NCBI RefSeq assembly: GCF_003129485.1
Contig: NZ_QFFG01000002.1
Span: 620,001 to 684,000, forward strand
DNA: 64,000 nucleotides
Direction of reading: 5' to 3'
Origin: Polaribacter aquimarinus
GTDB taxonomy: Bacteria > Bacteroidota > Bacteroidia > Flavobacteriales > Flavobacteriaceae
A model generated the notes under the pieces. That model ran no database searches and was not told where the DNA came from. It saw nothing but the letters and a program-made list of their open reading frames with translations. The number at the start of each line of letters is the position of its first letter. Within the stretch, counting starts at the first letter, position 1. Both the position numbers and the translations under genes were made by a program. Shown here in pieces: positions 26,281 through 42,470 of the stretch.

Positions 26281-26376
26281 ATGGGCGTTCCCTTGCAGGT
26301 CGTGCTTTCTGTTTTATCCCTGAAACAAGTTCAGGGGATGCCACTGCAATCACTAACGCGGGTATATTTACCCGTT
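26281..26376. repeat. Structured, G+C-richer intergenic element with nested stems
   Basis: Four complementary pairs nest or follow in order: GCGTT (26285-26289) with AACGC (26355-26359), TTGCAG (26293-26298) with CTGCAA (26344-26349), CCCTGAA (26318-26324) with TTCAGGG (26330-26336), and a trailing hairpin CGGGTA-TATT-TACCCG (26359-26374). The G+C content is clearly above its surroundings. It resembles intergenic repeats I recall from other Bacteroidota (GGGCGTT...AATC...AACGCGGG). No protein is encoded. Confidence 0.7.
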
Positions 26377-37752: not shown

Positions 37753-37783
37753 TTTGGTAAATACTAAAGAATTCGTATATTTG
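37753..37783 (+). promoter_or_regulatory. Consensus promoter of rimP-nusA-infB
   Basis: TTTG (37753-37756), 19-nt spacer, TATATTTG (37776-37783): both Bacteroidota elements at standard spacing, the best promoter in the window. The predicted start is near 37787-37790. Confidence 0.85.
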
Positions 37784-37802
37784 CACCGAAAAATAGGAAT
37801 AA

Positions 37803-37823
37803 ATGACAGAGAAGGGGACTTAA
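37803..37823 (+). CDS. Putative six-residue leader peptide upstream of rimP
   Basis: ATG ACA GAG AAG GGG ACT TAA encodes Met-Thr-Glu-Lys-Gly-Thr and stop. It starts about 13-16 nt after the predicted transcription start, behind an A-rich stretch like other starts here. Codons 4-6 form the 5' arm of a terminator hairpin and the stop lies in its loop. The reading frame is seen; translation is inferred. Confidence 0.4.
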   Translation: MTEKGT

Positions 37824-37850
37824 AAGTCCCCTCTTTTTATACTTTTTTTT
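37811..37850 (+). terminator. Leader terminator/attenuator hairpin before rimP
   Basis: GGGGACT (37814-37820), loop TAAA, AGTCCCC (37825-37831), followed by TCTTTTT and a second run of eight T at 37843-37850. It lies between promoter and rimP start (37858), so it can only act as an attenuator or processing site for the operon's own transcript. Confidence 0.75.
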
Positions 37851-37857
37851 AAGGTTT

Positions 37858-38322
37858 ATGAAGCAGGAAAATAGGGTAAAAGATTTAGTAGAAGAAGCAT
37901 TAGCTTTGAATGATTCGTTATTTTTAATAGATTTATCTATTTCAACAAATAATAAAATTCAGGTTACAGTAGATGGAGATAATGGAGTTCCATTAAGCGA
38001 ATGTATAAGAATTAGTAGAAATGTTGAGCACAATTTAGATAGAGAAGAAGAAGATTTCTCTTTAGAAGTAACAACACCAGACATTTCTCACCCTCTAAAA
38101 GAAAAAAGACAGTACAAAAAGAATATCAATAGAATCTTAAAAGTTAAAACTTCAGAAGAAGAATTTGAAGGGACTTTAGTAGAAGTAGATAATGCCAAAA
38201 TTGTACTAAATTGGAAAGCAAGAGAGCCAAAACCTATAGGTAAAGGTAAAGTTACTGTGCAAAAAACAGCAACTATAGCGTATAAAGATATTAAAGAAGC
38301 AAAAGTGAAGATTGTATTTTAA
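37858..38322 (+). CDS. rimP: Ribosome maturation factor RimP
   Basis: 154 aa cytosolic factor needed for maturation of the 30S subunit. The N-domain has VDGDNGVPLSECIRISRNVE and the C-domain EVTTPDISHPLKEKRQYKKNINR, both typical (flavobacteria have TPDISHPL where others have SPGLDRPL). First gene of rimP-nusA-infB, preceded by a leader hairpin. Confidence 0.95.
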   Translation: MKQENRVKDLVEEALALNDSLFLIDLSISTNNKIQVTVDGDNGVPLSECIRISRNVEHNLDREEEDFSLEVTTPDISHPLKEKRQYKKNINRILKVKTSEEEFEGTLVEVDNAKIVLNWKAREPKPIGKGKVTVQKTATIAYKDIKEAKVKIVF

Positions 38323-38334
38323 GTAAAAAATGTA

Positions 38335-39591
38335 ATGGAGAATATAGCATTAATTGATTCGTTTTCAGAATTTAAAGATAATAAAAGCATAGACAGAGTA
38401 ACATTAATGTCTATTTTAGAAGAAGTATTTAGAGCTGCCTTAAAACGTAAATTTGGGTCTGATGATAATTTTGATATCATTATTAACCCAGATAAAGGAG
38501 ATTTAGAAATTTGGAGAAATAGAGTTGTAGTTGCAGATGGTTTTTCTGAAGATGATAATGAAGAAATTGAATTAAGTGAGGCAAGAAAAATTGAGCCAGA
38601 TTTTGAAATTGGCGAAGATGTTTCTGAAGAAGTAAAACTAATCGATTTAGGAAGGAGAGCTATTTTGGCTTTACGTCAGAACTTAATTTCTAAAATTTAC
38701 GAGCACGATAGTACTAACATCTTTAAACAATTTAAAGATTTAGAAGGTGATTTATATAGCGCAGAAGTGCACCATATCCGACATAATGCAATCATTTTAT
38801 TAGATGATGAAGGAAATGAAATTGTATTGCCGAAAAGCGAACAAATTCGTTCAGACTTCTTTAGAAAAGGCGATTCTGTAAGAGGCGTTATAAAATCTGT
38901 AGAATTAAGAGGAAATAAACCAGCGATAATCTTATCGAGAACTTCGCCTTTATTTTTAAATAAATTATTTGAACAAGAAATTCCTGAAGTTTTCGACGGT
39001 TTAATAACTGTGGAAGGCGTAGCAAGAATTCCTGGAGAAAAAGCAAAAGTTGCCGTAGATTCATATGATGATAGAATAGACCCTGTAGGAGCTTGTGTTG
39101 GAGTAAAAGGGTCAAGAATTCATGGTATTGTTCGTGAGTTAGGTAACGAAAACATAGATGTAATCAATTATACTAAAAACGAGCAATTGTTTATTTCAAG
39201 AGCGTTAAGTCCTGCAAAAGTGACTTCAATGGAAATTGAAATGTATGAAGAAGAAAAAAATGGTAAAAAAGGACGTGTAAGTGTACTTTTAAAACCAGAA
39301 GAAGTTTCTAAGGCAATTGGTAGAGGTGGTGTAAATATTCGTTTAGCAAGTGAGTTAACTGGTTATGAAATTGATGTTCAAAGAGAAGGTATAGAAGAAG
39401 AAGATGTAGAATTAACAGAATTTATCGATGAAATCGAAGATTGGGTTATCACTGAATTCAAAAAAATTGGTTTAGACACGGCAAGAAGTGTATTAGAAAC
39501 TTCTGTAGCAGAATTGGTAAAAAGAACTGATTTAGAAGAAGAAACCATTATAGATGTTCAGAGAATTCTTAAAGAAGAATTTGAAGACTAA
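38335..39591 (+). CDS. nusA: Transcription elongation/termination factor NusA
   Basis: RNA polymerase-binding factor of 418 aa. N-terminal domain about 1-130, S1 domain about 135-205 (GDLYSAEVHHIRHNAIIL), then two KH domains about 210-345 (VGACVGVKGSRIHGIV, ISKAIGRGGVNIRLA). The C-terminal acidic repeats of E. coli NusA are reduced. It is 12 nt after rimP. NusA affects hairpin pausing and could sense the operon's own leader (inference). Confidence 0.96.
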   Translation: MENIALIDSFSEFKDNKSIDRVTLMSILEEVFRAALKRKFGSDDNFDIIINPDKGDLEIWRNRVVVADGFSEDDNEEIELSEARKIEPDFEIGEDVSEEVKLIDLGRRAILALRQNLISKIYEHDSTNIFKQFKDLEGDLYSAEVHHIRHNAIILLDDEGNEIVLPKSEQIRSDFFRKGDSVRGVIKSVELRGNKPAIILSRTSPLFLNKLFEQEIPEVFDGLITVEGVARIPGEKAKVAVDSYDDRIDPVGACVGVKGSRIHGIVRELGNENIDVINYTKNEQLFISRALSPAKVTSMEIEMYEEEKNGKKGRVSVLLKPEEVSKAIGRGGVNIRLASELTGYEIDVQREGIEEEDVELTEFIDEIEDWVITEFKKIGLDTARSVLETSVAELVKRTDLEEETIIDVQRILKEEFED

Positions 39592-39650: not shown

Positions 39651-42470
39651 ATGTCTGTAGGCAAAACAATGAGGCTTAATAAAGTTTTAAGAGAGTTAAA
39701 TATTTCTCTTGATAGAGCTGTCGAGTACTTAGCGGATAAAGGTCACGAAATAGAAGCGAGACCTACCACTAAAATTACTGACGAGGTTTATCAAGTGTTA
39801 CTTGACGGCTTTGAAACAGATGCAAATAAAAAAGCTGCATCTAAAGAAGTTGGAGAAGAAAAGCGTAAAGAGAAAGAAGCAATTCGATTAGCAGCAGAAG
39901 CCAAGTTAGAAGAGAAAAGAGCAGCAGAAGCTAAAAAGGAAGAGGTTTTAAAAGCCAAAGCAGATAAATTAGAGTTTAAAACTATTGGTAAAATCGACAT
40001 TGATAGCGTTGGTAAAAAACCTGCTAGTAAAGCTGAAGAAGTAAAAGAGGTTAAAGAAGAGCCAAAAGAAGTAATAGAAGAAACTAAGGAAGTAATTGAA
40101 GAACCTAAAAAAGTAGAACCTCCTATAGTGGAAGCTAAGGCACCTAAGTTAGAAGGTCTAAAGGTTGTTAAAACAATTGCTCCTGAGAAAAAAGAAACTC
40201 CTAAAACCGAAGTAAAACCAGAGATTAAGAAAGAAGTACCAAAAGTAGAAGAAAAGAAAGAAGAGGTTACCCCAGAGAATGCAGAAGCAATTAAAACTCA
40301 GTATAAAAAACTAGATGGTCCTAACTTTACAGGTAAGAAAATTGATTTAAAACAATTTGAAAAACCTAAAAAGAAGAAAGAAGAGAAAAAGGAAACGGCT
40401 AAAACTTCTGATACTAAAAGAAAACGTAAAAGAATTAGCAAATCTGGCGGCTCAGGTGCAGCTAATAATAATAGAGGTAACCAAAACAGCAGAGGTGGTC
40501 AAGGAAATAGAGGAGGATTCAATAGAGGAAGAGGAAACCAAAGACCTACTGTTAAAAAAGAAGAGCCAACAGAAGCAGAAATCCAAAAGCAAGTAAGAGA
40601 AACGCTTGAGAAATTACAAGGGAAATCTTCGAAAGGTAAAGGAGCAAAATACAGAAGAAGCAAAAGAGATGCCCATAGAGAGCAATCAGAAGCTGAACTA
40701 GAAGCACAAGCATTAGATAACAAAATCTTAAAAGTAACAGAATTTGTTACTGTAAGTGAGGTTGCTACAATGATGGGGGTTCCTGTTACAGATATTATTT
40801 CTTCTTGCATGATGTTAGGAATGATGGTAACTATGAATCAGCGTTTAGATGCAGAAACATTAGTTATTGTTGCTGAAGAATTCAATTATAAAGTAGAGTT
40901 TATCGGTGCCGAAGTAGAAGAATCTATTGAAGAGATAGAAGATAAACCAGAAGATTTAGTAAATCGTGCGCCAATTATTACTGTGATGGGTCACGTAGAT
41001 CATGGAAAAACTTCTTTGTTAGATTACGTTAGAAATGCTAATATAGTTGATGGGGAAAGTGGAGGAATTACACAACATATTGGAGCGTATTCTGTAAATG
41101 TAGGAGATCAAAAAATTGCATTTTTAGATACACCAGGTCACGAAGCCTTTACAGCAATGCGTGCACGAGGTGCGCAAGTAACCGATTTAGTAATTATTGT
41201 TGCTGCTGCAGATGACGATGTAATGCCACAAACAAAAGAGGCAATTTCTCACGCACAGGCTGCTGGAGTTCCTATTATATTTGCAATTAACAAGATAGAC
41301 AAACCAAATGCGAATCCAGATAATGTAAAAACGCAACTTTCTTCGATGAATTTATTGATAGAAGAATGGGGTGGTAACATTCAATCGCAAGATATTTCTG
41401 CAAAAACGGGTCAAGGAATTGATGAGTTGTTAGAAAAGGTTTTATTAGAAGCCGAAGTTTTAGAACTAAAAGCTAATCCTAATAAAAATGCAGTTGGCGC
41501 AGTTGTTGAAGCACAGTTAGATAAAGGTAGAGGTTATGTAACCACAATCTTAGTGCAAGCAGGTACTTTAAGAATAGGTGATTATATCTTAGCTGGTAAA
41601 AACAGTGGTAAGGTAAAAGCAATGTTTGATGATAAAGGAAACAAATTAAAAGTTGCTGGACCATCAACACCAGTTTCTATCTTAGGTTTAGATGGAGCGC
41701 CACAAGCAGGTGATAAGTTTATCGTTTTTGATGACGAAAGAGAAGCAAAACAAATTGCAACAAAACGTTCTCAATTACAACGTGAGCAATCTGTTAGAAC
41801 TCAGAAAACATTAACGCTAGATGAAATCGGACGTAGAATTGCGTTAGGAGACTTTAAAGAGTTAAATATCATCCTAAAAGGAGATGTAGATGGTTCTGTA
41901 GAAGCATTAACCAACTCATTCCAGAAATTATCAACAGAAGAAATTCAAGTAAATATTTTGCATAAAGGTGTAGGAGCCATTACAGAAAGTGATGTATTAT
42001 TAGCTACTGCTTCTGATGCGATTATTGTTGGTTTTAATGTTCGACCGCAAGGAAATGCAAGAGCCGTTGCAGATAGAGAAGAGGTAGATATTAGAACATA
42101 TTCTATTATTTATGACGCCATTAATGACTTGAAAGATGCGATGGAAGGAATGTTATCCCCAGAAATGAAAGAGGAAGTTTCTGGTAATGTAGAAATTAGA
42201 GAAGTTTATAAAATTTCTAAAGTGGGTAACATTGCAGGTTGTATGGTAATGTCTGGTAAAATCTTTAGAGATTCTAAAATTCGAATAATTAGAGACGGAA
42301 TTGTGGTTCACGATGGATTACTATCATCATTAAAACGTTTTAAAGATGATGTGAAAGAAGTGGCAAAAGGTTATGATTGTGGACTTCAAATTAAGAATTA
42401 TAATGACATTGAACAAGGAGATGTTATTGAAGCTTATAAAGAAGTTGCCGTTAAAAAGAAGTTAAAATAA
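39651..42470 (+). CDS. infB: Translation initiation factor IF-2
   Basis: GTPase delivering initiator tRNA to the 30S subunit, 939 aa. A small N-terminal IF2 domain ([21 protein letters not shown]) is followed by a Lys/Glu/Pro-rich linker (about 60-260), an Arg/Gly/Asn-rich stretch (266-298 with [10 protein letters not shown] and RGRGNQ), the IF2-N domain, the G domain (GHVDHGKT at 447-454, DTPGHE, NKID) and C-terminal domains. It starts at 39651; a second in-frame ATG lies 6 codons later. A strong terminator follows. Confidence 0.97.

Follow-up and report, generated by a model that had tools for sequence, protein, structure and literature searches.

A conserved terminator-like hairpin ahead of rimP-nusA-infB in Polaribacter aquimarinus and other Bacteroidota, probably an attenuator without a leader peptide

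The rimP-nusA-infB operon of Polaribacter aquimarinus is preceded by a short leader containing a hairpin that is real, conserved and, judged from its sequence, functional-looking. We analysed this leader within a window of 64,000 nucleotides (the whole stretch under study, positions 620,001 to 684,000 of contig NZ_QFFG01000002.1) and compared it with the rimP leaders of related genomes. The hairpin is conserved, its junction with the U tract is under selection and it is specific to rimP, and it is accompanied by neither a conserved leader frame nor a conserved antiterminator. We consider it likely that the leader is a promoter-proximal intrinsic attenuator that works without a leader peptide and for which NusA is the most likely signal. 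The comparison thereby settles the nature of the hairpin and removes a leader-peptide account for which support was missing.

The promoter consensus of Bacteroidota is TTTG-N19-TAnnTTTG. On the forward strand, the sequence upstream of the hairpin reads as a perfect Bacteroidota sigma-A promoter, with the -33 element TTTG at 37753-37756 and the -7 element TATATTTG at 37776-37783 separated by 19 nt (TTTG-N19-TATATTTG); TAnnTTTG has been described as the -7 box (PMC9723704). The transcription start site is expected near 37789. From there an A/G-rich spacer of near-constant length (37789-37812) leads to the terminator hairpin AGGGGACT-TAAA-AGTCCCCT (37813-37832), identified by folding, conservation and covariation, and the hairpin is followed by the U tract CTTTTTATAC (37833-37842) and a second T run (37843-37850). 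A six-codon frame, MTEKGT* (37803-37823; ATG ACA GAG AAG GGG ACT TAA), begins with the ATG at 37803-37805 and ends with the TAA at 37821-37823, within the hairpin loop.

The operon lies downstream on the same strand. Its first gene, rimP (37858-38322), is an open reading frame with RimP homologues in 58 of 60 genomes of the genus; it is followed by the open reading frames of nusA (38335-39591), supported by a Pfam NusA_N match in this genome, and of infB (39651-42470), which encodes 939 amino acids and is named IF2 from its sequence. The gene 5' of the leader is in the opposite orientation, and the hairpin is therefore part of the rimP transcript. All the parts on which the original prediction was built, namely the promoter, the six-codon frame with its TAA in the loop, the hairpin, the T runs and the rimP-nusA-infB order, are present in the sequence. 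Both T runs were correctly placed before rimP, but the second is absent as a conserved feature in the relatives. Elsewhere in the window (26294-26367, reverse strand) we observed a match to the Rfam Flavo-1 RNA (RF01705; 43.2 bits, cut-off 42), a widespread motif of unknown function.

Folding of the leader (37789-37845) yields -16.9 kcal/mol (z = -2.9), and two of 200 shuffled sequences fold equally well. Across 400 kb of the same genome, 234 genes have upstream DNA that is mostly noncoding. A strong hairpin followed by a U tract precedes three of them, and rimP is alone among the 234 in having a promoter-like TAnnTTTG ahead of such a hairpin. We also scanned a collection of GTDB-species genomes with the pattern AGGGGACN{3,6}GTCCCCTCTTTTTATA. 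At least 118 stretches contain it, and the matches listed all come from Bacteroidota; among these 118 listed matches, every one lies directly upstream of rimP, 116 as established through an HMM-detected RimP and two, situated at locus ends, through a RimP-like frame that starts downstream and was read by eye. Within the genus, the exact pattern is present in 51 of 60 genomes, in 50 of them as a single copy, and a reversed control pattern had no match in the same 60 genomes. The sole second copy in these genomes, GGGGACTAAAAGTCCCCTTTTTTTAT (G027:C2:502480-502505, reverse strand), is located away from rimP.

The conservation of the element was assessed by locating RimP in 206 loci sampled from the genus, the family, the order and the phylum and by reading the DNA upstream (the hairpins of L062, L355 and L356 were assigned by eye from the sequence). 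Of the 59 congeneric leaders, 58 carry the promoter element TATATTTG ahead of the hairpin, and the remaining one carries TATCTTTG. Nearly all leaders of Flavobacteriaceae consist of GAGGGGAC or AAGGGGAC, a loop of 3-7 nt, GTCCCCTC and the U tract TTTTTATA, the last being retained in most of them. Unlike the second T run, the TTTTTATAC immediately 3' of the stem is conserved. At the family level, compensated changes occur at the same spot, GGGGAC/GTCCCC being replaced by GGGGGC/GCCCCC, GAGCGGAC/GTCCGCTC or GAAGGGGC/GCCCCTTC.

Other lineages of the order and the phylum retain the hairpin and the U tract with different stems (GAGGCACGC, AAGGCCTTC, TTTGGGGAGC, TGAGCGTC...GGCACTCG, ATAGCCCG and AGTGGGG). 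Most of the phylum's other families have a hairpin with a U tract ahead of rimP, a claim that is weaker for the GC-rich distant genomes, and a convincing hairpin is missing in L184 and L357. Among 48 distinct stems, the two arms pair in 273 of 288 cells vs 174 +/- 6 when the letters of the 3' arm are shuffled, an excess that is partly a product of having chosen this set as hairpins. The sequence comparison thus favours, as originally predicted, a terminator-like element that attenuates rimP-nusA-infB, since the hairpin is conserved, covarying and specific to rimP. A terminator placed a few dozen bases past the promoter of the NusA/IF2 operon in most sampled families of Bacteroidota, and recurring there with exchanged stems, supports attenuation as a widespread theme for this operon.

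Two further arrangements were seen among the sampled loci. Six leaders from the phylum outside the class (L177, L178, L180, L181, L182 and L201) have two tandem terminator-like hairpins before rimP, the first of which may be the end of the preceding gene or half of a double attenuator. In two small-genome members of the family, a tRNA-Gln gene lies near the rimP leader (L155, 636-710, forward; L151, 562-635, reverse). In L155 it is oriented towards rimP, no -7 box was found between the two, and the tRNA and the operon may be cotranscribed, by comparison with metY-rimP-nusA-infB of E. coli.

The geometry of the leader indicates what the hairpin is positioned against. In the genus, the distance from the -7 box to the stem is nearly constant (28.4 +/- 1.1 nt), whereas that from the stem to rimP drifts between 15 and 54 nt; the element is therefore set relative to RNA polymerase and not to the rimP start. 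Purines occupy the base just 5' of the stem in 39 of 158 distinct spacers, against a purine share of 70% within the spacer (nominal p = 5e-31, overstated since the leaders are related), and the T:C ratio at this base stays at background level. A purine at this position would be able to pair with the tract's first U, and its avoidance fits the needs of a terminator. Compared with 34 gene-end terminators of the same genome, the leader terminator lies on the low side in its U tract (longest U run of 5, 7 T of 11), and its hairpin reaches -12.8 kcal/mol vs a median of -11.0 kcal/mol. The deficit of the U tract relative to 3'-end terminators is only slight, and the hairpin is far from weak by this measure, so that the hallmark of NusA-dependent termination, a weak hairpin or interruptions in the distal U tract, is not clearly recognizable.

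According to our model, RNA polymerase leaving the rimP promoter would make about 45-55 nt of RNA before the hairpin folds; some of the complexes would then terminate at the U tract, and the others would proceed into rimP-nusA-infB. A helix that engages the 5' arm, as expected of an antiterminator, is present in 3 of 214 leaders vs about 4.7 expected in shuffles. With no ligand aptamer, antiterminator or conserved frame in the leader, the signal must act via the elongation complex. The obvious candidate is NusA, because it is encoded in the operon and because it feeds back on the same operon in E. coli and B. subtilis. Plentiful NusA would raise termination at the leader and so exert negative feedback on its own operon. 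Termination in vivo and the setting of its efficiency by NusA are steps that we infer. The NusA feedback of the original prediction is thereby retained as the best-supported form of control, by analogy with other bacteria. A more elaborate version, in which the stem, at a fixed distance of about 20-25 nt from the transcription start site across the family, forms a valve testing whether NusA has already joined the polymerase when sigma leaves (sigma-to-NusA exchange) and is tuned in Flavobacteriaceae by a sequence-specific contact with GGGGAC/GUCCCC, seems to us rather improbable.

The same attenuator might instead answer to another sensor that reads the GGGGAC/GUCCCC stem, such as RimP, IF2, NusG, an r-protein or an unknown RNA-binding protein, a possibility that we hold to be unlikely although credible. 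Within Flavobacteriaceae the stem is nearly invariant, beyond what a terminator needs, and this uniformity could point to a specific protein other than NusA as the reader; Naville and Gautheret made the same inference in their text (PMC2965389), and in B. subtilis such terminators are also acted on by NusG. Other members of the order and the phylum, however, carry the unrelated stems GAGGCACGC, AAGGCCTTC, TGAGCGTC and ATAGCCCG, and therefore no single sequence is read throughout.

An attenuator governed by NusA through the elongation complex also differs from the original prediction in leaving out the ribosome. That prediction had a ribosome on the six-codon frame mask the 5' arm and thus couple the operon to translation capacity, which the leaders of the relatives render very unlikely. 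The closest relative (L002) shares the ATG and the in-frame TAA in the loop with the present leader, a similar frame exists in L018, and an ATG between the transcription start site and the loop occurs in 51 of 59 congeneric leaders vs 26 in shuffles. The positions and frames of these ATGs nevertheless vary. A stop in the loop is present in 18 of the 59 congeneric leaders, in one of 74 leaders from other genera of the family (L117, in which the rimP start is uncertain) and in 3 of 41 further leaders of the order. Of 57 congeneric ATGs, 18 are in frame with a loop stop, vs 12.7 expected from random frames. In most of the other congeneric leaders with an ATG, the frame runs past the hairpin, overlaps rimP or fuses in frame to it. 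Moreover, five distinct congeneric leaders (L043, L050, L052, L053 and L057) have no ATG, GTG or TTG in the spacer.

The excess of ATGs in the genus might have indicated a genuine start codon, a reading that was rejected by a test on spacers from several genera. Of 158 distinct spacers preceding GAGGGGAC, 50 have an ATG wholly within the spacer vs 48.4 when shuffled, and ATGs at the stem base number 48 vs 45.2 expected from single positions. The latter, made of A, T and the fixed G of the stem, reach their observed rate because purines are avoided 5' of the stem. With a spacer of about 24 nt, a ribosome would have to load very quickly, and in f35, another family of the phylum, the stem lies 2-3 nt past the predicted transcription start site and therefore leaves no room for a leader frame. 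The absence of an alternative antiterminator pairing also speaks against attenuation by a leader peptide, although such a pairing would be unneeded if the ribosome itself blocked the arm. Start codon, frame and stop all vary among the relatives, and the comparison of the leaders gives the very outcome that the original prediction had named as fatal to it, a conserved hairpin with no conserved start codon or frame. The frame MTEKGT* is most likely fortuitous. In L004, L013, L023, L033, L039 and others, no stop separates rimP from an in-frame ATG upstream of the stem, so that an annotation of rimP might include extra N-terminal codons that run through the hairpin.

A hairpin acting on translation or RNA stability, by guarding the 5' end or by shaping the initiation region of rimP, is highly improbable. 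The stem does end 9-17 nt ahead of the rimP start in many species, and Flavobacteriia lack Shine-Dalgarno sequences (PMC9723704), but a stem-to-start distance that ranges over 15-54 nt in one genus with a fixed promoter-to-stem distance does not suit this role, and the conserved U tract and junction would be superfluous for a 5' cap hairpin. A palindromic DNA operator for a repressor acting downstream of the promoter is scarcely conceivable, for although the palindrome is near-perfect and at a constant distance from the promoter, its centre spacing shifts by single bases (loops of 3-7), the U tract always lies next to it, there is a single target gene and both arms change together into unrelated stems.

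The promoter-proximal attenuator that we favour has known counterparts in other bacteria. In the account of Naville and Gautheret (2010, PMC2965389), the rimP-leader is the most ubiquitous attenuator, with NusA as the best candidate for its control; it has a G-rich 5' arm, a C-rich 3' arm and a U stretch, possesses no antiterminator, is operon-specific and lies 4-130 nt from the start codon. The leader described here likewise places a terminator directly before rimP of rimP-nusA-infB, with AGGGGACT/AGTCCCCT followed by CTTTTTATA as G-rich arm, C-rich arm and U stretch, and it shares the lack of an antiterminator and the specificity to the operon (118 of 118 listed sites). Where the published core reads GGGc...gCCC, the present leader has GGGGAC...GUCCCC and several relatives have GGGGGC/GCCCCC. 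In ten leaders from distant lineages (L358, L359, L360, L366, L370, L371, L372 and L381-L383) the arms are reversed, 5' CCCG...CGGG 3', so that a G-rich 5' arm as in the published motif is not phylum-wide. The paper names Firmicutes and Gammaproteobacteria, and its main text contains no words starting with 'Bacteroid' or 'Flavobact' (PMC2965389).

The Rfam family RF01770 has no match in this genome and, among 14 control genomes, does match E. coli; a search of 161 nt containing the leader against Rfam with E values up to 10 likewise gave no match to a rimP family. The tandem terminator/antiterminator form of Gammaproteobacteria is absent here. The best reading is that the leader is a Bacteroidota member of the rimP-leader class that lies outside RF01770, a model blind to it that could usefully be complemented by one built for Bacteroidota. 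A structured 5' element at rimP, conserved in other genera of Flavobacteriaceae and with no Rfam hit, was reported in 2021 for Flavobacterium psychrophilum (PMC9723704); the main text of that report gives neither sequence nor mechanism, and the element is likely identical with this hairpin.

In E. coli, terminators t1 and t2 lie upstream of rimP in metY-rimP-nusA-infB, which is described as subject to NusA feedback (PMC6511841); the present leader resembles it in having a terminator upstream of rimP and, by inference, in the feedback. For B. subtilis, a review describes NusA-stimulated termination in the nusA leader and autoregulation of NusA (PMC12288461). Both there and here an intrinsic leader terminator limits, or would limit, transcription into nusA, but the dependence on NusA is demonstrated in B. 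subtilis and drawn by analogy here, and the leader of about 180 nt in B. subtilis (PMC2965389) contrasts with one of about 70 nt in P. aquimarinus, with the hairpin about 24 nt from the transcription start site. By this analogy, the leader probably works like the nusA attenuator of B. subtilis, with autoregulation by NusA, and its shortness is a practical advantage for studies of NusA-stimulated termination in bacteria other than Firmicutes.
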